NCBI RefSeq assembly: GCF_903643035.1
Contig: NZ_CAHJWW010000004.1
Location: forward strand, 1 to 32,934
Reading direction: 5' to 3'
Length of the DNA: 32,934 bases
From: Sphingomonas bacterium
GTDB lineage: Bacteria > Pseudomonadota > Alphaproteobacteria > Sphingomonadales > Sphingomonadaceae
Part shown: positions 1,778 through 13,827 of the stretch, in pieces
Numbering within the stretch: position 1 is the first letter of the stretch
How the letters are laid out: each line of letters begins with the position of its first letter
Translations under genes and position numbers: made by a program
The notes under the pieces: model-generated
Databases searched by the model: none
What the model saw: the letters and a program-made list of their open reading frames with translations, nothing else
What the model was told of the DNA's origin: nothing

Positions 1778-4411
1778 CTAGGATGGAGTCGCGATCGCCG
1801 CGTTGATCTCGGCCTGCTTCGCGTCGCGCAGCGCGCCGCAATGCCGGATCGTCTCTACCGTCCGCTCGAACTCCAGCACGCCGGCGTTGGCGGCGCGCAC
1901 CTTGGGTCCGAGCGTCCGGTCCAGCCGGTCGGCCCTGTCCACGCCGCATTGCAGGGCGAACATGCCGGGCAGGCGGCTGGTCGTGAAGATGCCGTTGCCG
2001 CCCGCTGCCAAGGTGGCGTAGTTGGCGAGGATCCAGTCGCCCGCGATCCCGGTCGTCTCGGGCGTCCCGGCCAGGCCGGCCAGCAGCTGCAACCGTTCGA
2101 GCGACCGCAGCCGCGGGTCCCGGAAGCCCAGCAGCCACTGCGCCACGTCGGCGCGGCCGGTGGTGCCGATCGCGCCGATGGCGGCGCTGCGGAACGATGC
2201 GTCCTCGCTCGCCAGCGCGCGCGCCATCATGGTCCGGGACGCCGGCAGGCCGCCCTGCTCCAGCACGACGCCCAGCGCCGGCGCGACGATTGCGGGATCG
2301 AGCGCGGTCCGGTCGCCGGCCAGATAGGCGTTCGCCGCCACGGCCATCCGCGCCCGGAGCGCAGCGTCCTGCGCCTCGCCCGCCAGCAGGGAGAGAAGCT
2401 CCTGGCGCAGCTTCTGCCGGTCCGGCGCGTCGGCGGCATAGGCGCCGGCCTTCAGGTCGCCGCCGAGCGAGGCGAGCCGGGGCGCGTAGATCGCGGCCAC
2501 CAGCGCGCGATAGGCGGGCATCGTCGCGGGCGTCAGGAACCCGTGCCGCCGCCACGAGGCGAGATGACCCGCCGGCTCCAGCGCCACCTCGGAGTTCGGG
2601 TTGCCCGCCATTGCGCGGGCGGCGTCGACGATCCAGCCGGCCGGCGCGGTGCCGGCGCGGAAGGCGGCGTAGAGGCTGTCGTCGCTCGCCAGCGCCTCGC
2701 CGGCGTCCAAGCCCGCCCCTTGCGCGATCAGCGCCTTCCAGTCGGCGGGAGCGAGGTCGAAGCGGTAGTAGCCGGTGCCGCCGGCGTTGGGCATGATGAC
2801 GTCCGCGGGGGCCGCGTCGATCGTCATGGTCGGCCGGTCCAGCAGCGTGCAGGCCCGCGTCGTGCCGGTGCGGACGCACAGCGGGATCGTCCACCGTTCC
2901 GGCGACGGACGGCTGCCGAGATAGCCGTAGCGCGACTGGGTCGCGACCAGCCGCCCGCCGTCCCGCCGGATCGAGACGACGGGAACGCCCTGCTGGTCGA
3001 CGAAGCTGCGCATCGCCGCGACGACGCGCGGGTCCCGCGCCGAGTCGGCGAGCGCCTGGAAGAACTGATTGGAGGTCGCGTTGCCGTACTGGTGGCGGGA
3101 CAGGTGCAGCCGCACGCCCGCCTTGAAACGGTCGTCGCCCAGATAGGCGGCGATCATCGTGATGACCTGCCCGCCCTTGCCGTAGGTGATGGTGTCGAAC
3201 GCGTCGTCGATCTGCGCGTTGGTGGCGATGTGCTGGTGGATCGGGCGCCCGACCTCCAGCGCGTCGGTGTTCATCGCCGAGAAGCCTTCCGCGATGCCGC
3301 CGACGCCGATGTTCAGCTCGGGTCGCCACTCGTTGCCGATGCGGTAGCCCATCCAGTTGGCGAAGCTCTCGTTCAGCCAGGTGTCGTCCCACCAGGCGGG
3401 CGAGACGAGGTCGCCGAACCATTGGTGCGACAGCTCGTGCGACACCACCATGCCGAAGGTCTGCCTGCTCCGGGTCGGTGCCTTGCCGTCGAGCAGCAGG
3501 ATGCCGTCGCCATAGATGTCCGCCCCGGCGTTCTCCATGGCCCCCGGCATCACCGGCGAGCCGATCTGGTCGAGCTTGGGGAAGGGGAACGACTGGCCGA
3601 AATACCGTTCCAGCAGCGACACGATGCGCGGAGTTTCCGCCATCGCATAGTCCAGCCTGCCGGCCTGAGCCCCCGTCGTCACCACGCCCAGCGGCAGCCG
3701 CGTCAGCCGCTCCGCGTCGACGGGCACGGCGCCGGTCGGATGCAGGAACGGCCCGGTGACCATCGCCACCAGATAGGTCGGCAGCGGCTTCGTGACCTGG
3801 AAGACGTGTCGTTCCAGTGCTCCGACCGTCGTGACGCTCGCCTCGGGCGCGTTGCTGACCGCCTTGTTGCCTGGCGCGGTGGTGATCGAGATGGCGAACG
3901 GCGTCTTGTAGCCGGGCTCGTCGAACGAGGGAAAGGCGGCGCGCGCGTCGATGCTCTCGAACTGCGTCCAGCTGTACCAGGTGCCGGCGACGTTGATCCG
4001 GTAGAGTCCCGACGGATTGCTGCCGAACGCGGCATCATAGTCGAACGTCAGCGTAATCGGTCCGCTCACCGGTTCGGGGAAGTCGAGCCGCACCACGCCG
4101 GTCGGATCGACCTGCGTGTAGGCGACCGGCATCGTCGTCCCGCCCACCGTCGCGACCGAGCGCGACACGGCAAGGTCGCGGCCGTGCATGTAGAGGTGCG
4201 TCGTCGGCGCCTTCACCGTCACGTCGATCTCGTCATGACCGGTGAAACGCGGACGATCGGGCAGGATCGTCATGTCCAGCCGATAGGCGGTGGGCGTCGC
4301 GGCATCGGCCAGCCTGCCGAGCGGCACGGACGGGTCCGCCGTCGCGGCGAGTGCGCCGCTCGCGCAGGTGAGGAGCAGGGCAGCGAGCAGCGGGCGCATC
4401 GGCGGTTCCAT
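1778..4411 (-). CDS. Secreted M1 family zinc aminopeptidase
   Basis: This 877-residue protein is an M1 (gluzincin) metallopeptidase that removes N-terminal residues from peptides. It begins with a signal peptide (MRPLLAALLLTCASGALA after a short MEPP lead), so it acts in the periplasm or outside. Key motifs are visible: the GAMEN exopeptidase motif near residue 290, and HELSH at 325-329 with the third zinc ligand Glu at 348 in the NESFANW motif, exactly 18 residues later. The C-terminal ERAP1-like helical domain follows. Length is normal for the family. Two starts are possible, ATG 4411 and ATG 4399; neither has a strong ribosome binding site, and the second gives a more typical signal peptide. 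It is divergent from the small lysine-rich gene at 4561. Confidence 0.95.
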   Translation of the reverse strand: MEPPMRPLLAALLLTCASGALAATADPSVPLGRLADAATPTAYRLDMTILPDRPRFTGHDEIDVTVKAPTTHLYMHGRDLAVSRSVATVGGTTMPVAYTQVDPTGVVRLDFPEPVSGPITLTFDYDAAFGSNPSGLYRINVAGTWYSWTQFESIDARAAFPSFDEPGYKTPFAISITTAPGNKAVSNAPEASVTTVGALERHVFQVTKPLPTYLVAMVTGPFLHPTGAVPVDAERLTRLPLGVVTTGAQAGRLDYAMAETPRIVSLLERYFGQSFPFPKLDQIGSPVMPGAMENAGADIYGDGILLLDGKAPTRSRQTFGMVVSHELSHQWFGDLVSPAWWDDTWLNESFANWMGYRIGNEWRPELNIGVGGIAEGFSAMNTDALEVGRPIHQHIATNAQIDDAFDTITYGKGGQVITMIAAYLGDDRFKAGVRLHLSRHQYGNATSNQFFQALADSARDPRVVAAMRSFVDQQGVPVVSIRRDGGRLVATQSRYGYLGSRPSPERWTIPLCVRTGTTRACTLLDRPTMTIDAAPADVIMPNAGGTGYYRFDLAPADWKALIAQGAGLDAGEALASDDSLYAAFRAGTAPAGWIVDAARAMAGNPNSEVALEPAGHLASWRRHGFLTPATMPAYRALVAAIYAPRLASLGGDLKAGAYAADAPDRQKLRQELLSLLAGEAQDAALRARMAVAANAYLAGDRTALDPAIVAPALGVVLEQGGLPASRTMMARALASEDASFRSAAIGAIGTTGRADVAQWLLGFRDPRLRSLERLQLLAGLAGTPETTGIAGDWILANYATLAAGGNGIFTTSRLPGMFALQCGVDRADRLDRTLGPKVRAANAGVLEFERTVETIRHCGALRDAKQAEINAAIATPS

Positions 4412-4560
4412 CTTGCAGGGAGAGGCGACGGAGTAGGGCGACGGCGGCGGCCGGACAAGCTGCCCCGACGGTCGTGCCGCCCCTTCGATAATTTCCGGCG
4501 GGCGCGTCCCCGGAAGCTGCTATGCCATGCGCCCAGACCGTTCGAAGAGGAGATGGAACC

Positions 4561-4689
4561 GTGGCCAAGAGCCAGCAAAAGTCCAACAAGGAAGTCCGCA
4601 AGCCCAAGGCGGAGAAGCCGGCCAAGCAAAACGCGTCGAACCCGTCGACCAAGGGAAAGGCGTCGGATGGCACGCCGCCGAAGGGCTAG
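4561..4689 (+). CDS. 42-residue lysine-rich protein, unknown function
   Basis: GTG at 4561 opens a 42-residue ORF ending with TAG at 4687-4689. AGAGGAG at 4546-4552 sits eight bases upstream, a good ribosome binding site. The product (MAKSQQKSNKEVRKPKAEK... ending TPPKG) has no hydrophobic core: Lys, Ala, Ser, Asn and Pro dominate, so it is very basic and probably disordered. From memory, similar short proteins starting MAKSQQKSN are widespread as conserved hypotheticals in proteobacteria; I know of no assigned function. Nucleic-acid binding would fit the charge but is only inference. The 149 bases between this start and the divergent aminopeptidase start hold both promoters. Because it starts with GTG and is short, automated gene callers may miss it. 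Confidence 0.75.
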   Translation: MAKSQQKSNKEVRKPKAEKPAKQNASNPSTKGKASDGTPPKG

Positions 4690-4752
4690 CGCGGCCGGGC
4701 GAGGGGTCCGGGCGGAGGAGGCGTCGCCGCCGCGCCCGGATCGTGCCGTCGG

Positions 4753-5247
4753 GTGATCGTCACGCCCGATCCCATCGGCCCCGGGCAGGAGAGTGTGTGG
4801 GCATACCCGCGCCCGGCGGTCGCCGAGCCGAGCGGTCGGCACGTCCGGATCGAGCATCGCGGGCGCGTGATAGCCGACACGCGGGCCAGCATCCGCACGA
4901 TCGAGACCAGCCATCCGCCCAGCTACTACGTTCCGCCCGCTGACGTCCTCGCGTCCGTGCTGCGCCGGTCGGCGCACCGCTCGTTCTGCGAGTGGAAGGG
5001 ACATGCGGTCTATTGGGATCTCGTGACGGACGGGGCCGTCCTTTCCGACGTCGCCTGGAGCTATCCGTCGCCGACCCGCGCGTTCGCGATGCTGCGCGAT
5101 CACCTCGCCTTCTATGCCGCCCCGCTGGACGCCTGCTCCGTGGATGGCGAGCGCGTGGCGCCGCAGCCGGGCGGCTTCTACGGCGGCTGGATCACATCCG
5201 ACCTGGCAGGGCCATTCAAGGGCGTGCCGGGCAGCCGCTACTGGTGA
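4753..5247 (+). CDS. DUF427 domain protein
   Basis: The 164-residue product matches the DUF427 family: an N-terminal TPDPIGPGQESVWAYPRP segment, then RVIADTRASIRTIETSHPPSYYVPPADV, then FCEWKGHAVYWDL with its conserved Cys, Lys and Gly. DUF427 forms a small beta-barrel-like fold; its biochemical role is not established. The longer form with an extra N-terminal segment and a C-terminal tail, as here, is common in alphaproteobacteria. GTG 4753 is chosen because the conserved DPIxPGQESVW segment begins right after it; no clear Shine-Dalgarno sequence is seen. The gene follows the small lysine-rich gene after 63 bases on the same strand and is convergent with the DUF6481 gene. Confidence 0.88.
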   Translation: MIVTPDPIGPGQESVWAYPRPAVAEPSGRHVRIEHRGRVIADTRASIRTIETSHPPSYYVPPADVLASVLRRSAHRSFCEWKGHAVYWDLVTDGAVLSDVAWSYPSPTRAFAMLRDHLAFYAAPLDACSVDGERVAPQPGGFYGGWITSDLAGPFKGVPGSRYW

Positions 5248-5759: not shown

Positions 5760-5799
5760 CCGTCACCAACCTGTCGTCGAACCGTCGCCGAACCGCAAC
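5760..5799 (+). promoter_or_regulatory. Probable PhoB box array upstream of the first TonB receptor
   Basis: Four 7-base units lie exactly 11 bases apart: CCGTCAC at 5760, CTGTCGT at 5771, CCGTCGC at 5782 and the weaker CCGCAAC at 5793. The PhoB consensus is two CTGTCAT-like 7-mers separated by 4 bases, also an 11-base period. The second unit matches 6 of 7 positions. The array ends 44 bases before the ATG at 5844, a suitable place for an activator site. That this is a true PhoB site is inference. Confidence 0.5.
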
Positions 5800-5843
5800 G
5801 AAGCGGCATTACGACGCCGGATCGGGCAAGCAGGGGATGACAG

Positions 5844-8249
5844 ATGCGATACACGCTCGTGCGACAAGTCGGAAGCGCCTCGGTGCTGACCCTGGCCATG
5901 GCCCTGACATCGGGTGCAGCGCACGCCCAGACGGCCGACCTGGCGGCCGCATCGTCAGCCGACCCGGCGCCCGCCGCCGCCGACGCGCCGCAGACCGACG
6001 CACAGCCGCAGGACATCGTGGTGCTGGGGTTCGGTCGCAGCCGGCAGGTGCAGACGGTGACGGCGGACGACATCGCGCTGCTCACCCCAGGCACCAGCCC
6101 GCTCAAGGCGGTCAGCAAGCTGCCGGGCGTCTCGTTCCAGGCGGCGGACGCGTTCGGCGCCTATGAATGGGCGGTGCGCATCTCGCTGCGCGGCTTCAAC
6201 CAGAACCAGCTCGGCTTCACGCTGGACGACATCCCGCTCGGCGACATGAGCTACGGCAACGACAACGGCCTGCACATCAGCCGCGCGATCATCTCGGAGA
6301 ACGTCGGCCGGGTGGAAGTGGCGCAGGGCGCAGGCGCGCTCGCCACCGCGTCCACGAGCAATCTGGGCGGCACGCTGCAGTTCTACAGCGCGGCGCCGCG
6401 AGACCGCGCGGGGGTCGAGGTGTCGGGGACCGGCGGTTCGGACTCGACGTACCGGGCCTATGTCCGGCTCGACTCGGGCGATCTGACGGGCGGCGGCCTG
6501 CGCGGCTATGTCAGCTATGCATATCTCACGACCGACAAATGGAAGGGCTATGGCCCGCAGCGCCAGCATCAGGCGAACGCCAAGCTGGTTCAGGACCTGG
6601 GGCCGCTCGGCAGCATCTCGGCCTTCTTCAACTTCTCCGCCCGACGCGAGACGGACTATCAGGACCTGACGTTCGACCTGTTCAACCGGTTGGGCCAGAA
6701 CGCGGCCTACCGCGTCGACAACATCCGTCCCGACTACGCGCTGGCCGAGCGGCTGGCGCGCGCCTATCAGACGGGCGGCGCGTTTCCCGCGCCGTACCAG
6801 AACGTCGACGACGTCTATTACGACGCCGGCGGCCTGCGGAACGACTATCTGGCCGGCGCGACGTTCGACGCGCATCTGGCGCCGGGCCTCGTGTTCAAGA
6901 CCACCGGCTATTACCATCGCAACCGCGGCCAGGGTTCGTGGATCACGCCCTATGCCGCGACCCCGACCGGCGCGCCCGATGCGAACGGCGACCCGATCGC
7001 CAATCCGGCTCCTCTGTCGTTCCGCACCACGGAATACGCCATCCACCGCGGCGGCGTCGTCTCGACGGCCAGCTACGAGACAGGGCCGAACACGCTGGAG
7101 ATCGGCGGATGGTACGAAAGCAACGCCTTCGACCAGGCCCGCCGGTACTACGGGCTGGGAGCGACGGCGCCGGGGCGCGAGACGCTCGAGTTCCAGGCCA
7201 ATTCCTTCTTCACTCAGTATGAGGGCAAGTACGACACCCGGACGATGCAGTACCACGTCTCGGACACGCTGAAGCTCCTGAACGACGCGCTCGTCATCAA
7301 CGGCGGCTGGAAGGGGGTGAAGGTCGACAACACCGCCCGTGTCACCGTCGGCCCGCTGGCGAGCGGACGCATAGGCGCGACCGACTGGTTTCAGCCCCAG
7401 GTCGGGGCCGTGTTCCACGCCGGGCCGATGGTGGAAGTGTTCGCCGACTATACGCAGAACATGCACGCCTTCGTCTCCGCACTGACCGCCGGGCCGTTCT
7501 CCACGACGCAGGTCGGGTTCAACGCGCTGCTGGGCAATCTGAAGCCCGAGACGTCGCGCACCTATGAAGGTGGGCTGCGCTTTCATCAGGGGCCGTTGCA
7601 GGCGTCGGCCGTCGGATATTACGTCAACTTCGACAACCGGCTCGCCGCTTTCGCCAACGGATCGGGCATCGTCGGCAACCCCTCGATCCTCAGCAACGTC
7701 GGCAGCGTCCACACCTATGGCGCGGAGGGTACGGTCAACTATCGCCTGATGAGCGACCTGTCCGTATTCGCCAACTATTCGTACAACCACTCCAAATACG
7801 CCAACAACGTCCTGAACGGGAACGGGTCCGTATACGCCTATACCCAGAACAAGTTCGTCGTCGACGCGCCAGAGCACATGGCGAAGGCCGAACTGGTCTA
7901 TGACAATCGCTCGCTCTTCGCCCGCGTGAACGGCGACTACATGTCGAAGCGGTATTTCTCCTATGAGAACGACCTAGTCGCCAACGGCCGCTTCCTCGCC
8001 AACGCGAGCATCGGCTATCGCTTCGCCCACGAAGGCCCGATGCACGACGTCACGATCGAGTTCAACGTGAACAACCTGACCGACAAGCAGTATATCGCGA
8101 CGGTGAACACCAACAACGTCCAGGTTCGGGGCTATACCGACACGCCCAACTCCGGCCGGGTGAACGGCGCGGGGTTCGATGCCGACAACCCCAACTTCAT
8201 GGTCGGGTCGCCGCGCCAGTATTTCGTATCGCTCAAGAGCCGCTTCTGA
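5844..8249 (+). CDS. TonB-dependent outer membrane receptor (first of pair)
   Basis: This 801-residue protein is a TonB-dependent active transporter of the outer membrane. It has a signal peptide cleaved after AHA near residue 28, a TonB-box-like DIVVLG near 57, and a plug domain (LLTPGTSPLKAVSKLPGVSF, LRGFNQNQLGFTLDDIPLGD, STSNLGGT). A long beta-barrel follows, with a NVNNLTDKQY motif near the end and a terminal Phe (SLKSRF) typical of outer membrane proteins. AGGGG at 5832-5836 is the ribosome binding site. It is related to the receptor at 9401-11887: both share FNxxQLGxTLDxxPLGD, RAIISExVGRV and STSNLGGT. The substrate cannot be read from sequence; the neighbouring phosphodiesterase and the Pho-box-like repeats upstream suggest a phosphate-containing compound. 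Confidence 0.94.
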   Translation: MRYTLVRQVGSASVLTLAMALTSGAAHAQTADLAAASSADPAPAAADAPQTDAQPQDIVVLGFGRSRQVQTVTADDIALLTPGTSPLKAVSKLPGVSFQAADAFGAYEWAVRISLRGFNQNQLGFTLDDIPLGDMSYGNDNGLHISRAIISENVGRVEVAQGAGALATASTSNLGGTLQFYSAAPRDRAGVEVSGTGGSDSTYRAYVRLDSGDLTGGGLRGYVSYAYLTTDKWKGYGPQRQHQANAKLVQDLGPLGSISAFFNFSARRETDYQDLTFDLFNRLGQNAAYRVDNIRPDYALAERLARAYQTGGAFPAPYQNVDDVYYDAGGLRNDYLAGATFDAHLAPGLVFKTTGYYHRNRGQGSWITPYAATPTGAPDANGDPIANPAPLSFRTTEYAIHRGGVVSTASYETGPNTLEIGGWYESNAFDQARRYYGLGATAPGRETLEFQANSFFTQYEGKYDTRTMQYHVSDTLKLLNDALVINGGWKGVKVDNTARVTVGPLASGRIGATDWFQPQVGAVFHAGPMVEVFADYTQNMHAFVSALTAGPFSTTQVGFNALLGNLKPETSRTYEGGLRFHQGPLQASAVGYYVNFDNRLAAFANGSGIVGNPSILSNVGSVHTYGAEGTVNYRLMSDLSVFANYSYNHSKYANNVLNGNGSVYAYTQNKFVVDAPEHMAKAELVYDNRSLFARVNGDYMSKRYFSYENDLVANGRFLANASIGYRFAHEGPMHDVTIEFNVNNLTDKQYIATVNTNNVQVRGYTDTPNSGRVNGAGFDADNPNFMVGSPRQYFVSLKSRF

Positions 8250-8273
8250 CGGCGTTCGCCGGCGCGTCCCTGT

Positions 8274-9398
8274 TCAGCGGTTCGCGGGCGACATCCGCCC
8301 GTCGACCGCGGCGCGGCCGAGCGCGGGATCGTCGGTGAAGAAACCATCGATGCCGGTCGCGAGACAGGCGCGGATCTCGGCAACCGAACCGGCAGGCGAG
8401 CGCGATGCCGGATCGCCGCCGTTGCGGAAGTCCGCGGCCAGGAACTGGTTCTCGGGCCGGAACGTCCATGGCATGACCGCGAGCCCGGCGCGATGCGCAT
8501 CGGCGACGAGGCGGGCAGGCTTGCCGAGCCGCCCGTTGGGACCGAGCGGGATGATGCTGCGCATGTCGGGTGCGACGATGTGCGCGTAGGTCGCCATCTC
8601 CGCGAGGCCCGCCGGCGTCATCATGCCCGCATAGGTCAGCCTGCCGCCGGCCGCGGCGACATCGCCCGGCTGAAGGCCCGCCGGCGTGCCGGTGACGAGC
8701 TGCATCAGCCGCGCGTCCGGCCGGGCGAGCCACGGCCGCAGGTAGCGCAGGTTGCCGACCTCGAACGACTGGACGATCAGCGGGCAGCGCCGGGTATAGT
8801 CGTGCTGCGCGAGGCTGGCGAGGAACCGGTCCTCGAGCGGCAGGCCGACCGAGGCGAAATACGTCGAGTGCTTCAACTCGGGCACCAGCCCGATCGACCT
8901 GCCCCGCGCGAGGCTCTCGGCCGCGGCGAAGTCGATCATCTCGGGCCAGGTGACGAGATCGAATTGTCCGTCGAGCGCGGCGTTCTGCGGCCGAACCCGG
9001 GGCAGCCGCTCGATGGCGCGGAGCGTCTTGAGCTCGGCCAGCGTGAAGTCCTCGGTGAACCAGCCGAGCTGGCGGTCGCCGTCGATCGTCTTTTGCGCGC
9101 GTCGGCCGGCGAACTCGGGATGCGCCCGCACGTCGGTCGTCTCGGCGATGTTGTTCTCGTGCCGGATCAGCAGCGCGCCGTCCTTCGTGGCGACGAGGTC
9201 GGGCTCGATGAAGTCCGCACCGTCCGCGATCGCCTTGGCGTAGGAGGCGAGCGTGTGCTCAGGTCGCAACGCCGATGCGCCGCGATGGCCAAGGACGAGC
9301 GGGCGAGTCGCCGGCCCCGGCGCCGCCCGTGCCGCACCGCCGCCGCCACCCAGCGCCAGCATCGCCCCGCCTGCCATCACCGTGCGCCGCCCGATCAC
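8274..9398 (-). CDS. Exported glycerophosphodiester phosphodiesterase
   Basis: GDPD enzymes hydrolyse glycerophosphodiesters to glycerol-3-phosphate and an alcohol. The 374-residue product has the TIM-barrel signatures: HRGASALRPEHT with His38 and Arg39, then Glu65 and Asp67 in FIEPDL, and the second catalytic His80 in LIRHEN. The N-terminus carries a twin-arginine-like leader (MIGRRTVMAGGAMLAL) and an ARA-AP cleavage site, so it should act in the periplasm, like GlpQ. The start is GTG at 9398, two bases after the stop of the upstream receptor gene, so the two are surely co-transcribed and probably translationally coupled. Its 3' end is convergent with the first receptor gene, with 24 bases between. 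Confidence 0.93.
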   Translation of the reverse strand: MIGRRTVMAGGAMLALGGGGGAARAAPGPATRPLVLGHRGASALRPEHTLASYAKAIADGADFIEPDLVATKDGALLIRHENNIAETTDVRAHPEFAGRRAQKTIDGDRQLGWFTEDFTLAELKTLRAIERLPRVRPQNAALDGQFDLVTWPEMIDFAAAESLARGRSIGLVPELKHSTYFASVGLPLEDRFLASLAQHDYTRRCPLIVQSFEVGNLRYLRPWLARPDARLMQLVTGTPAGLQPGDVAAAGGRLTYAGMMTPAGLAEMATYAHIVAPDMRSIIPLGPNGRLGKPARLVADAHRAGLAVMPWTFRPENQFLAADFRNGGDPASRSPAGSVAEIRACLATGIDGFFTDDPALGRAAVDGRMSPANR

Positions 9399-9400
9399 CG

Positions 9401-11887
9401 TCAGAACCCCACGCTGACCGTGCCGAAGAACTGGCGCGGCGCGACGGGGAAGAAGTTGTAGGTGCCCGACGCCGCGCCGACCGCGAGCGTGGATGCGGCC
9501 CGCTTGCCGGTGATGTTGGTCACGTTGAGGCTCACTGTCGCCTTGCGCACCCGGAACGCCTCCGGCAGCGCGACGTCGACCGCGATCCGGCCCGATAGCG
9601 TGAAATAGGCTGGGACCGACAGGTCGTCGGTGAAGGTGGCGTATCGCCTGCCCAGATAATCACCGACCAGCTGCACGTCGACCGGTCCGACGTCCGCCGT
9701 CGCGACCGTCTTGTTCAGCCAGTCGGGCGATCCCGGCACCTTCTTGCCCGCGGTCGGCACCGTCGTCGTGCCGCTGGTGTAGTTACCATCGTAGCGCGAG
9801 TTGTTGTACGACACCGCGTCGTAGATCGAGAAGTGCGACCCGAAGCGCAGCGTGCCTGCGATGTCGAAGCCGTCGGTGGTGACGCTGCCGACGTTCTGCA
9901 GGATGGTCGCGCCGCTGACGATCGCGGTGATCGTGGTCGTCGGGCTGATCGCCAGCAACCGGTTCGAGAAATCGACATGGTAGTAGCTCAGCTGCCCGTC
10001 GAAGGCGGTGATTGGCCCCAGCGACAGCGCATGGTGCGAGCGGGCGCCCGCCTCATAGGTCCAGCTCGTTTCCGGCTTGGTGTTCGCCTCGAACGCGGCG
10101 AACAAGGTCTGGCTGCCAAGCGCGAACGGCGACAGGCCGGCGGCGGCGCTGGTCTGGAACTGGCGCACGTTCTTCTGAATGTTGAAGAACAGCTGCTCGC
10201 GCCCCGTCACCTCCCAGATCGCACCGATCTCGGGTAGGAACGCCTGCGTCGTGTTCAGCCGTCCGGTCGGCAGCTCGCGCGAGCCGGTGAACGAGCCGGG
10301 GATCGGCTGCACCGGCACCGCCTGCGTGGCCATCTGGAACGTGCTCTTGAAGCCCGCCTGGATCGTGACCGCGGGTACGATCTTCCATGCGTCCTGGATG
10401 TGGGTCTGGATTTCGTCCACGCGGACTTCGCTGCCATACTGGGTGATGAGCGGCGTCTCGTAATCGTGCGGCCGGGTATAGGGCGAGGACGGGGCGCCTG
10501 CGTTCACCGCGTACCAGCGGCGATAGGCGGATGAACTCTGGTGCTCGTACCAGCCGCCCAGCTCGATCTGGTGATCGCCAAGGTCTAGCCGCAGCGTGGA
10601 AAGCAGGCCCTCGCGGTCGATCCGATACTCGGTGGTCCGGGCCGCCAGGCTGGAGCCGCCGAATATGGTCGACAGGCGTGCAAGGTTCGCCGCCGAGGTG
10701 GGGCTGCTGCCCGCCGCGCCGGGATAGTAGAAGGAGAACAGCTGCGGCAGACCGGCGGCGGTGATCGGCCCCGCCACGACGCCGACACCGTCGTCGTGGT
10801 GGAAATAGACCTGGTTGATCCAGTGTATGCGGTCGGATGCGTGCCAGTCGTACTTCGCATAGCCAAGATAGTCGGTCCGTTGCGCGTCGCTGTAGTAGTT
10901 GCTGTAGTTGGAGCCCGAGGCGGCATAGCTCGCCGCCCCGTTGTAAGCGAGCTGTCCGGCATAATAGCTCTGCGCGGCGCCGAAGTCGGGGTACAGGAAC
11001 GGGCGCGCATAGGGCTGATACGCCTGGGCGGCGGACACGACGGTCGCGTCCTCGTTCGGCTCGGTCTTGTCCGAATAGGAAAAAAACACGTCGAGCCGCC
11101 CGGTCGGGTCCTCGTGGACTAGCTTGGCGTCGGCCTGATAGCCGCCCTGACGGCCGTTGAAGTCCCATGCGCGCGCCTTCTGGCGCAGGCCTGAGACGTA
11201 GAACCGCGTGTTCTGGCCGATGTCGCCGCTGTCGATCCGGGCATAGGTCCGCAGCGCGTCATAGCTGCCGACCACCTGCTCCACCGTGGCGCCGAGCATG
11301 GGCCTGGGATCGCTGGAGAAGGTGTCGATCGTACCGCCGAGGTTGCTGGTGGACGGCGTGCCGAGATCGCCCGCGCCGCTCGCCAGCGTCACCCGGCCGA
11401 CATCCTCCGAGATGATCGCGCGCTGCGGCGACAGGCCGTTGTAGTTGCCGTATTGCTGGTCGCCGAGCGGCAGGCCGTCGAGCGTGTAGCCGAGCTGCTG
11501 CGCGTTGAAGCCGTGGATGAAGAGCGAGATGTTCTGCTCGTTGTTGCCCCACGGGTCGGCGGTCAGATAGGTCACGCCCGGCAGCGTCTGCAACGCCTTC
11601 AGCGGGCTGATGCCGGGCAGGATCTTCTGGATCTCGGTGCCCGACACCTGGGACACGGCGCGTGTCGTCGTGCCGGTGACGACGATGTCGCCGCTCTCGG
11701 TATCGGTCGCGGACGGGCCGGTCGCCTGAACGGTCGTCGTGGTCGCGCCGTCATCGGCGCGGGCGGCGGGTTGGGCGGTGGCTGGGCCGGTTGCGGCCGC
11801 GACCTGCGCTGCGGCCGGCGAGGCCGCGATCATCGCCGCGATGGAGGCTCCCGCCCGCAGCCGCTTAGGTCCCGCCCTGTTCGTCAT
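9401..11887 (-). CDS. TonB-dependent outer membrane receptor (second of pair)
   Basis: The 828-residue product is a second TonB-dependent receptor. It has a signal peptide ending AAA-Q near residue 27, a TonB box DIVVTG near 67, a plug with LPGVTYLTADPWGNNEQNISLFIHGF, LGYTLDGLPLGDQQYGNYNG and STSNLGGT, and a barrel ending with FFGTVSVGF (C-terminal Phe). GGGAG lies seven bases before ATG 11887. It is a paralogue of the receptor at 5844, in inverted orientation, and the first gene of an operon with the GDPD. A Pho-box-like site lies 75 bases upstream. Together these favour uptake of a phosphodiester or phosphate ester during phosphate limitation, but the substrate is inferred from context only. 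Confidence 0.94.
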   Translation of the reverse strand: MTNRAGPKRLRAGASIAAMIAASPAAAQVAAATGPATAQPAARADDGATTTTVQATGPSATDTESGDIVVTGTTTRAVSQVSGTEIQKILPGISPLKALQTLPGVTYLTADPWGNNEQNISLFIHGFNAQQLGYTLDGLPLGDQQYGNYNGLSPQRAIISEDVGRVTLASGAGDLGTPSTSNLGGTIDTFSSDPRPMLGATVEQVVGSYDALRTYARIDSGDIGQNTRFYVSGLRQKARAWDFNGRQGGYQADAKLVHEDPTGRLDVFFSYSDKTEPNEDATVVSAAQAYQPYARPFLYPDFGAAQSYYAGQLAYNGAASYAASGSNYSNYYSDAQRTDYLGYAKYDWHASDRIHWINQVYFHHDDGVGVVAGPITAAGLPQLFSFYYPGAAGSSPTSAANLARLSTIFGGSSLAARTTEYRIDREGLLSTLRLDLGDHQIELGGWYEHQSSSAYRRWYAVNAGAPSSPYTRPHDYETPLITQYGSEVRVDEIQTHIQDAWKIVPAVTIQAGFKSTFQMATQAVPVQPIPGSFTGSRELPTGRLNTTQAFLPEIGAIWEVTGREQLFFNIQKNVRQFQTSAAAGLSPFALGSQTLFAAFEANTKPETSWTYEAGARSHHALSLGPITAFDGQLSYYHVDFSNRLLAISPTTTITAIVSGATILQNVGSVTTDGFDIAGTLRFGSHFSIYDAVSYNNSRYDGNYTSGTTTVPTAGKKVPGSPDWLNKTVATADVGPVDVQLVGDYLGRRYATFTDDLSVPAYFTLSGRIAVDVALPEAFRVRKATVSLNVTNITGKRAASTLAVGAASGTYNFFPVAPRQFFGTVSVGF

Positions 11888-12285
11888 CGCGTCGCTCCCG
11901 CCGACGATCTGCCGACCCGCCGCCCTCTATTTCTGGCGCACGACAGAATGCGGTCAATCCGATGACACTGATGTGACGAGTTGTCGCCGTGACGCGGGAT
12001 CCGCCGTCATCCGCCCCGAACGCGTGGCTCGGCCACATGGCACGAGCAGCTGTCTCGCTCCGACATCCCGCGCCCACCCGCCCTTTGCCCATCCGCCAGG
12101 AAACGGCCCATCCGCCACGAACCGGACCTGAGCCATCGTCGGCTCCTTGGGAGAACTCGGGCGTGGCTGAACGCCTTGCGTGTTTCCGCATCGTTGCCCT
12201 GCAGCGTCGAGTCGATGCTTGACACTCCAACGGGTGCGGCCGCAGTCCGGTGGCCATGACGCATCAGGGCGACGGAGGCGCGCGG
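11888..12285. other. Divergent intergenic region between second receptor and sulfatase
   Basis: These 398 bases hold no convincing gene; ORFs in it have no family resemblance and no supported starts. It contains a Pho-box-like site at 11962-11979 facing the receptor gene, a direct repeat (GCCCATCCGCCA at 12087-12098 and again at 12106-12117), and an isolated TTGACA at 12219-12224 that could be a -35 element for the sulfatase, though no matching -10 is evident. Confidence 0.6.
11962..11979 (-). promoter_or_regulatory. Probable PhoB box upstream of the second receptor-GDPD operon
   Basis: Read on the minus strand the site is TCGTCACATCAGTGTCAT: two GTCA cores exactly 11 bases apart with a 4-base spacer between 7-mers. 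The GTGTCAT half matches 6 of 7 positions of CTGTCAT, the other half 4 of 7. It lies 75 bases upstream of ATG 11887. The match and the independent array in front of the paralogous receptor support a shared PhoB control, by inference. Confidence 0.5.
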
Positions 12286-13827
12286 ATGGACGACCCGACG
12301 CGGCGCGGCGTCCTGCTGGCGGGGACCGGGGGTGCCTTTGGTCTCTATTCATGGGCGACGGACGCGGCGGCGACGGGGGTGCGGCGGTCGCGCACCTTGG
12401 CGCGGGTGCCGGGCGTCAGGCCCAGGAACATCCTCGTCGTGCTGACGGACGACCACCGCTACGACGCGCTGGGCTTCCTCAAGCCGCAGGACTTCGTCGA
12501 GACGCCGACGCTGGATCGGCTGGCGCGCGAGGGCACGCACTTCCGCAATGCCTTCGTGACGACCGCGCTCTGCTCGCCGTCGCGCGCGTCGATCTTCACC
12601 GGGCTCTACGCGCACCAGCACAAGGTGGTCGACAACAACCACCCGATCCCGCCGGGCCTCGTCTTCTACCCGGAGTATCTCCAGGCGGCGGGCTACCAGA
12701 CGGCGTTCATCGGCAAGTGGCACATGGGGGACGAGACCGACGCGCCGCAGCCCGGCTTCGACCGCTGGGTCAGCTTCAAGGGGCAGGGCAGCTATCTGCC
12801 GAGCGCCGACGGGCTCAACGTCGACGGGCGCCGGGTGGCGCAGCGCGGCTACATCACCGACGAGCTGACCGACTATGCGCTCGACTGGCTGGGCGCGCGC
12901 GACCGGACCAGGCCCTGGATGATGCACCTCGCGCACAAGGCGGTGCATGCCGAGTTCATTCCCGCCGCACGCCATGCCGGGCGCTACGACGGTGCGACCT
13001 TCCGATATCCCGCCTCGATGAGGGCGGGCGTGCCCGGCCGTCCCGCCTGGGTCGAGAATCAGCGCAACAGCTGGCACGGCGTCGCCTATCCCTATCACGG
13101 CAAGTTGGACGTCGGCGCCTACTACAAGCGATACATGGAGACGCTGCTGGCGGTGGACGAGGGGCTGGCGCAGATACTGGACCTGCTCGAGCGGCGGGGC
13201 GAGCTCGACGACACGCTCATCCTGTATCTGGGCGACAACGGGTTCATGTTCGGCGAGCACGGACTGATCGACAAGCGTGCGGCGTACGAGGAGTCCATGC
13301 GGGTGCCGATGATCGCGCGCTGCCCGGCGCTGTTCCCGGCGGGCGGTACGGTCGAGCAGGTGGTCGCCAACATCGACATCGCGCCGACGATGCTCGCCGC
13401 CGCCGGGCTACAGGCGCCCGCCGGCCTGGCGGGGGCGGACATGCTGCCGCTTGCCGCCGGGCGCGCGGTGCCGTGGCGGCGCGATCTGCTGTACGAATAT
13501 TACTGGGAGCGCAACTTCCCCCAGACGCCCACGGTCCATGCATTGCGCGAGGACCGCTACAAATACATGCATTTCCACGGTATCTGGGACATCGACGAGC
13601 TCTACGATCTCGCCGCGGACCCGCAGGAGAACGACAACCTGCTCGCTCGCCCCGGGCACGAGGAACTGGCCGAGCGGATGAGCGGCAAGCTCTTCAGGAT
13701 CCTCGAGGAGACCGGCGGGATGGAGATCCCGCTCAGCCCCGACCAGGGCGGGCGCAACGACCTGCGCGACCCGCACGGACCGCCACAGGCGCCGTTCCCG
13801 CCCGGCTTCTTCCGCCCGCCCGTGTGA
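12286..13827 (+). CDS. Exported sulfatase-family hydrolase (formylglycine type)
   Basis: The 513-residue product belongs to the alkaline-phosphatase superfamily, type I sulfatases. It shows the metal-binding Asp pair in VVLTDDHRYDALG near residue 55, and the CSPSR signature with Cys96, which a maturase would convert to formylglycine. Later come GKWH, the second metal site in YLGDNGF and the RYKYMHF and LYDLAADPQENDNL C-terminal motifs. The leader (DDPTRRGVLLAGTGG) has a twin-arginine look, placing the enzyme in the periplasm. ATG 12286 is chosen over GTG 12250 because GGAGG at 12274-12278 sits seven bases upstream. The substrate is not clear; a sulfate ester is the default, but some relatives cleave phosphodiesters or phosphonate monoesters. 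No sulfatase-maturing enzyme is encoded in the window. Confidence 0.9.
   Translation: MDDPTRRGVLLAGTGGAFGLYSWATDAAATGVRRSRTLARVPGVRPRNILVVLTDDHRYDALGFLKPQDFVETPTLDRLAREGTHFRNAFVTTALCSPSRASIFTGLYAHQHKVVDNNHPIPPGLVFYPEYLQAAGYQTAFIGKWHMGDETDAPQPGFDRWVSFKGQGSYLPSADGLNVDGRRVAQRGYITDELTDYALDWLGARDRTRPWMMHLAHKAVHAEFIPAARHAGRYDGATFRYPASMRAGVPGRPAWVENQRNSWHGVAYPYHGKLDVGAYYKRYMETLLAVDEGLAQILDLLERRGELDDTLILYLGDNGFMFGEHGLIDKRAAYEESMRVPMIARCPALFPAGGTVEQVVANIDIAPTMLAAAGLQAPAGLAGADMLPLAAGRAVPWRRDLLYEYYWERNFPQTPTVHALREDRYKYMHFHGIWDIDELYDLAADPQENDNLLARPGHEELAERMSGKLFRILEETGGMEIPLSPDQGGRNDLRDPHGPPQAPFPPGFFRPPV

Follow-up and report, generated by a model that had tools for sequence, protein, structure and literature searches.

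Two TonB-dependent receptors and a GlpQ-type phosphodiesterase in a probable phosphate-starvation locus of a Sphingomonas bacterium

Organization of the locus

The window, by which we mean the whole stretch of 32,934 nucleotides that was analysed, is contig C4 of a Sphingomonas genome that consists of 339 contigs and is 78% complete. It contains two related TonB-dependent receptor genes that converge on a GDPD gene (Table 1). This arrangement had been claimed in a preliminary description made from the sequence alone, and it is borne out by the ORFs, Pfam and BLASTP. The same description placed receptor 2 and the GDPD gene two bases apart, and the spacer between the receptor 2 stop codon and the GDPD start on the same strand is indeed made up of positions 9399-9400. 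Judged from the sequence, the two genes probably form an operon and would then be co-transcribed. The convergent ends of the receptor 1 and GDPD genes are separated by 24 bases.

Table 1. Features of the receptor-GDPD locus, with positions in the window
Feature	Position	Strand	Details
Pho-box-like array before receptor 1	5760-5799	+	11-bp units; 84 to 45 bases before the receptor 1 ATG
TonB-dependent receptor 1	5844-8249	+	801 aa; PF00593 and PF07715
GlpQ-type GDPD	8274-9398	-	374 aa; GTG start; PF03009 at 3.6e-37
TonB-dependent receptor 2	9401-11887	-	828 aa; PF07715 only
Pho-box-like array before receptor 2	11951-11990	-	64-103 bases before the receptor 2 ATG; extra GTCG unit at 11944
Sulfatase-superfamily enzyme	12250-13827	+	PF00884 at 2.6e-55; divergent from receptor 2

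The two receptors are paralogous, with 33% identity over 827 columns (E 2e-107, BLASTP). The plug and β-barrel domains that define TonB-dependent receptors could be identified, PF07715 on both proteins and PF00593 on receptor 1 only. An AlphaFold2 model of receptor 2 (mean pLDDT 75) matches PqqU (9c4o) at TM 0.66/0.81, and the closest folds among solved structures belong to PqqU/YncD and to siderophore receptors, with identities of mostly 12-15%. As the comparison returns generic TonB receptors only and is silent on the ligand, it was set aside as a ligand clue.

The GDPD contains the HRG...E-x-D...H motif of GlpQ-type enzymes in addition to PF03009, and it is the sole PF03009 match in the assembly, which is incomplete. 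Among solved sequences, the one nearest to it is E. coli GlpQ (1ydy, 6.5e-26). With 119.6 bits it stays under the cut-off of 254 bits of the NCBIfam equivalog PRK11143, and is by that model a member of the same superfamily and not an equivalog. The N-terminus is twin-arginine-like, with RRTVMAGG near the start. Loose patterns found the GlpQ-type motif in 47 of 51 GDPD family genes and an RR motif ahead of HRG likewise in 47 of 51; the four genes without a match to the former are three over-extended ORFs with a spurious first HRG and one distant paralogue.

The region singled out in the preliminary description ends at 13827 with a sulfatase-family gene that is absent from its text. The sulfatase has an intact CSPSR motif and a twin-arginine-like start. 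The genes called at the 108 other loci of the comparison include no homologue of it at E ≤ 1e-10, and the boxes between the divergent genes point to receptor 2, so the sulfatase was set aside as a third component. The intergenic region that precedes the sulfatase gene also contains a tandem pair of 19-bp direct repeats (12087-12124; 89% alike). Elsewhere in the window, positions 1778-4756 hold two long open frames (877 and 971 aa) that overlap on opposite strands, and no Pfam match was found for the one on the plus strand.

Pho-box-like arrays in the window

GTCA/GTCG units are located at 5762, 5773 and 5784 (+) before receptor 1 and at 11977, 11966 and 11944 (-) before receptor 2, where GACC occupies the 11-bp position between the units at 11966 and 11944. 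At least two 11-bp direct repeats near the promoter, as seen for the pst genes and expected of the Pho regulon, are thereby present for both receptors.

A Pho-box matrix of 29 bp, which covers three 11-bp units, was trained on the upstream regions of pstS-type genes of relatives and included no receptors. Twelve of 30 pstS-type loci were used, chosen for a clear site in a hand-made half-site matrix built on what we take to be the PhoB consensus; two of the remaining loci had no usable ORF, and 16 had no clear site or an ill-placed start. When both strands of the 33-kb window were scanned, the four best sites all fell in the two receptor promoters (18.6 at 5760+, 17.6 at 5771+, 17.4 at 11962- and 13.3 at 11951-) and the next site in the window scored 10.6, and the repeats are therefore more than chance. 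The unit positions and the matrix ranking agree with the earlier claim that GTCA/GTCG repeats with an 11-bp period are found upstream of each receptor.

Pho context in the same genome

The genome encodes PhoB (338 bits against a curated cut-off of 296), and the neighbours of phoB are phoU and a gene for a PhoR-like kinase (287 bits, under its cut-off of 334). On contig C53 (L206, 3043-5987 +) the phoR-like gene, phoU and phoB are contiguous, and pstCAB is not located between them. No matrix site of 9 or more was found in this phoR-phoU-phoB locus, and the incomplete assembly yielded no PstB above its cut-off. A 515-aa protein that joins a PstS-like binding domain with an OmpA domain is encoded on contig C40 (L207, 2187-3734 +), and this is the sole PF12849 match in the same incomplete genome.

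Genome-wide, the pattern YGTCAYNNNNNYGTCRY occurs 49 times and its reversed control 9 times. The matrix was applied to 34 of the 49 matches and reached at least 9 at eight places among these 34 scored sites, including the two window promoters, an NPP gene (C30) and a junction between a receptor and PhoD (C56). The other places are two inside genes (C58 and C93), one that is unclear (C98) and one that precedes an HTH-like gene with a score of 9.0 (C100). The C30 gene (L213, 1990-4266 +) encodes an NPP-type phosphodiesterase with its called TTG start within the Pho-box-like site. On C56 (L212, 2-1993 - and 2034-3812 +), a third TonB receptor is divergent from a PhoD phosphatase with Pho-box-like sites at the junction, one of which overlaps the called start of PhoD. 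Since the boxes contain or overlap them, the called starts of both NPP and PhoD are probably too early.

Pho-box signal across related receptors

The Pho-box matrix was also applied to related loci, with the other genes of the same loci as controls; these controls include real Pho genes. Gene starts came from a simple GC-based caller and several are over-extended, and upstream regions shortened by a contig end were left out of the box scoring. In the family set, 23 of 28 receptors (the window's two included) scored over the 95th percentile of 410 control genes, a set that includes one receptor fragment (Mann-Whitney p 7e-13). For 80 named loci (L090-L169), 61 of 84 receptors were over the 95th percentile and 44 of 84 over the 99th percentile of 994 controls (p 6e-34). 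These loci are the best 80 of at least 574 relatives when ordered by similarity to receptor 2 and are therefore no even sample, and near-copies such as L165 and L169 are counted separately. L101 and L103 duplicate the records of L036 and L035, respectively; both were kept in the clustering, the 84-receptor test and the gap survey, and dropped from the tree and the merged counts.

Merged without duplicates, 82 of 109 receptors were over the 95th percentile of 1377 controls (18 of 21 type-1 receptors, which resemble receptor 1, and 64 of 88 type-2 receptors, which resemble receptor 2), and 52 of 109 were over the 99th. Some of the 27 receptors not over the 95th percentile have over-extended called starts. 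The excess of half-site triples was strongest at the 11-bp spacing (29 vs 414, p 3e-14); it was weaker at spacings of 7, 8 and 14 (p 6e-4 to 3e-5), and the other six spacings gave p ≥ 0.02.

The top-scoring control genes of the relatives include PhoX (L052), type II secretion gene C (L057) and a PHO4-family phosphate transporter located just upstream of a receptor (L099), all of which are expected Pho targets. According to the excerpted account of the Caulobacter PhoB regulon, the type II secretion system is PhoB-regulated in this bacterium (PMC11208175). The type II secretion gene C of L057 (15345-16169) has a strong Pho-box-like site 91 bases upstream and lies on the same stretch as a family receptor.

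A less biased check is given by a sample of 398 genomes drawn evenly from the phylum, in which 19 genomes, one of them the own genome, contain a family member at E ≤ 1e-120. The own genome and the already seen G042 were excluded, and 23 loci were taken; in one of these (L219) no receptor was called and it was not counted, which gives 22 receptors. The Pho-box signal is weaker in this sample, with 6 of 22 receptors over the 95th percentile and 1 of 22 over the 99th percentile of 185 controls (p 2.7e-6). Many receptors in the sample share just 28-46% identity with the nearer of the two window receptors and may have other functions.

Receptor clades and their phosphoesterase neighbours

With receptor 2 as the query, matches of either type at E ≤ 1e-50 were found in 22 of 149 family genomes, including the own genome. 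Thirteen other family genomes have a type-2 receptor, and in six of them a GDPD gene lies directly downstream on the same strand. With duplicates removed from the whole set, a GDPD gene was found in this position for 50 of 89 type-2 receptors vs 0 of 21 type-1 receptors (Fisher p 6e-7), and an NPP gene for 0 of 89 type-2 vs 6 of 21 type-1 receptors (p 2.5e-5), relatives being treated as independent in both tests. On the receptor tree, 14 changes are required for GDPD linkage, compared with a mean of 36.5 after shuffling (0 of 500 shuffles as low), and 5 are required for NPP linkage, compared with a mean of 6.9 (3 of 500 as low).

The pairing of receptor 2 with a GDPD spans Sphingomonadaceae/Sphingobiaceae, Oxalobacteraceae/Burkholderiaceae and Rhodanobacteraceae, and the gap between the two genes is -1 to 4 bases in many loci. 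The linkage, which the preliminary description had proposed to look for in other sphingomonads, is conserved there and extends beyond them. For 38 of 89 type-2 receptors, some of them at a contig end, no GDPD, NPP or PhoD gene was found directly downstream on the same strand; these 38 include all five type-2 receptors from Caulobacteraceae and Azospirillaceae, whose loci have no adjacent GDPD. In the phylum sample, BLASTP found a phosphoesterase directly downstream of 6 of 22 receptors, namely GDPD (2), NPP (1) and PhoD-like (3, two of these at 33-34% identity), so the link between receptor and phosphoesterase is real but not universal.

In the receptor 1 clade, the neighbour is an NPP-type phosphodiesterase or PhoD wherever a phosphoesterase was found: NPP adjoins 7 of 21 and PhoD 4 of 21 type-1 receptors, with Pfam run on representatives. 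Receptor 1 of the window is the only one of the 21 beside a GDPD, and the two genes are convergent. As the two receptor clades keep different phosphoesterases adjacent, the earlier idea that the receptors have two different specificities gains support. PhoD, receptor 1, receptor 2 and GDPD follow each other head to tail in the Sphingomonas loci L093, L096 and L160 (PhoD assigned by Pfam in L096 and by clustering in the other two). The four-gene order is present in S. phyllosphaerae FA2, and the pair of receptor 2 and GDPD in Sphingomonas sp. Leaf339. Locus L136 from Rhodanobacteraceae has receptor 2, GDPD, a small gene, NPP and a type-1-like receptor with a long branch, likewise head to tail. 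Two receptor types around a GDPD are therefore one form of a recurrent cluster.

The neighbourhoods also bear on the reading of the receptors as carriers of siderophores or other metal chelates that lie beside a GDPD by chance, which we regard as very improbable. TonB-siderophor (TIGR01783) is the best NCBIfam match of receptor 1 (5.9e-34) and siderophore receptors are among the nearest folds, but the match is far under the curated cut-off (117.7 vs 223.5 bits) and receptor 2 has no TIGR01783 match at E ≤ 0.01. The E. coli-type Fur consensus, from which alphaproteobacterial iron boxes can differ, showed no excess of matches (p 0.14; 8 and 9 of 19 for the window receptors). The linkage to GDPD, NPP or PhoD, which recurs across families, and the enrichment of Pho boxes likewise argue against metal chelates as the cargo.

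Proposed function of the locus

The Pho regulation proposed in the preliminary description is supported at the sequence level by the independently trained matrix, the 11-bp spacing, the conservation in relatives and the Pho-type genes at other sites of the own genome. From the Pho-type control sites and the recurring receptor-enzyme pairing it follows that the locus probably scavenges organic phosphate. We consider it likely that this is a phosphate-starvation locus in which Pho-regulated import of phosphate esters across the outer membrane is coupled to hydrolysis in the periplasm. Here we infer PhoB binding, induction, co-transcription, export and transport as well as the substrates, both their identity and the very point that phosphate esters are the cargo of the receptors.

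At low phosphate, phosphorylated PhoB would bind the boxes with the 11-bp period and switch on both receptors, and the GDPD would be turned on by read-through from receptor 2. The receptors would spend TonB energy to carry organic phosphate esters across the outer membrane. In the periplasm, the GlpQ-type GDPD, presumably exported by Tat, would split glycerophosphodiesters into glycerol-3-phosphate and an alcohol, and the glycerol-3-phosphate might then be taken up or dephosphorylated, e.g. by PhoD-like phosphatases. Receptor 2 would most likely import glycerophosphodiesters, which are deacylated phospholipids like glycerophosphocholine or -ethanolamine. A different phosphate ester, probably one that NPP- or PhoD-type enzymes act on, might be the cargo of receptor 1.

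Small glycerophosphodiesters may need no TonB receptor where porins exist, and this counts against the explanation above. The usual cargo of TonB receptors is molecules that do not fit through porins, and a Pho-regulated locus could instead serve larger substrates (for example glycerophosphate polymers in the form of teichoic acid fragments, nucleic-acid pieces, lysophospholipids) that the GDPD or an NPP trims in the periplasm. The GDPD belongs to the GlpQ family, in which some Gram-positive enzymes cut teichoic acid, and type-1 relatives lie beside NPP-type phosphodiesterases, as would suit such cargo. We nevertheless find larger substrates unlikely; the nearest solved relative of the GDPD is the periplasmic GlpQ of E. 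coli, which is known for small glycerophosphodiesters.

The preferred reading, import of phosphate esters coupled to their hydrolysis, is also favoured by the very tight receptor-GDPD coupling in many loci, which points to a shared substrate path. This makes it rather improbable that the GDPD recycles the cell's own phospholipid headgroups in starvation lipid remodelling, with the receptors meeting another Pho-regulated need, even though the Caulobacter PhoB regulon has GDPDs and a phospholipase C that the excerpted account ties to phospholipid replacement (PMC11208175).

Tentatively, and with slightly more doubt than confidence, we suggest that there is a proteobacterial family of Pho-regulated receptors in which every clade is accompanied by a particular periplasmic phosphoesterase, clade 2 by GDPD and clade 1 by NPP or PhoD. 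The result would be modular loci for phosphate-ester utilisation in which receptor and enzyme match in specificity, and polymers that exceed the size limit of porins may be imported by some of the clades. If true, such loci would be the counterpart of polysaccharide utilisation loci.

Relation to known systems

The passage of organic phosphate through the bacterial outer membrane is poorly mapped, especially in groups that are thought to depend on TonB receptors instead of general porins. The periplasmic GlpQ of E. coli (PDB 1ydy, 1t8q) belongs to the same enzyme family as the GDPD of the window, but glpQ is coupled to inner-membrane glpT, whereas the GDPD here is coupled to an outer-membrane receptor.

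The concept is already known from the Flavobacterium PUS loci and the Caulobacter PhoB regulon, and the present locus is a variant with clear receptor-enzyme pairing. In the excerpted account of Flavobacterium, the PUS include outer-membrane transporters that are induced by Pi depletion, some of them beside phosphodiesterases, and three TonB transporters are also Pi-induced (PMC8115612). Both here and there, outer-membrane transporters lie beside periplasmic phosphodiesterases or phosphatases and import of phosphate esters is proposed (PMC8115612). PUS I and II have SusC-like transporters with a SusD lipoprotein (PMC8115612, in the same excerpt); Pfam gave no SusD family member for the window genes and the neighbours scanned, and a PusCD pair could thus not be recognized. 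Unlike PUS, the locus described here is found in Proteobacteria and has a GlpQ-type GDPD as the main partner.

The PhoB regulon of Caulobacter crescentus comprises TonB receptors, GDPDs and a nucleotide pyrophosphatase; in the excerpt of this account the receptors are unnamed and a receptor-GDPD linkage is unstated (PMC11208175). Unlike the window, the three Caulobacteraceae loci compared have no adjacent GDPD. The organophosphate hydrolase-TonB complex of Sphingobium fuliginis is similar in that a sphingomonad uses TonB-linked phosphate esters as a phosphate source, but it is based on a phosphotriesterase for insecticides, and GDPD is unmentioned in the excerpt of the review (PMC7142613). A receptor-GDPD module in Proteobacteria was undescribed in titles and abstract openings among the matches listed, with subscription journals mostly outside the scope. 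The conserved, tight receptor-GDPD pair with Pho boxes is a testable candidate in Sphingomonas, Duganella, Janthinobacterium, Massilia and similar genera, and a linked phosphoesterase would allow many unassigned TonB receptors to be annotated.

Other observations in the related loci

Two further neighbours were too few for linkage: a DUF2235/Tle1-like gene, convergent with a type-2 receptor in L033 and with a homologue near a receptor fragment in L045, and a PAP2 gene, which adjoins a more distant receptor in L037. The receptor of L169 (Arthrobacter sp. TPD3018) is nearly identical to those of Sphingomonas, and that of L105 (Microvirga sp. SRT01) is nested among them; both records are probably misnamed or contaminated. 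Finally, L137 contains a second, distant GDPD paralogue (12033-13442, -) near its receptor-GDPD pair, and this gene has a Pho-box-like site upstream with a score of 12.6.
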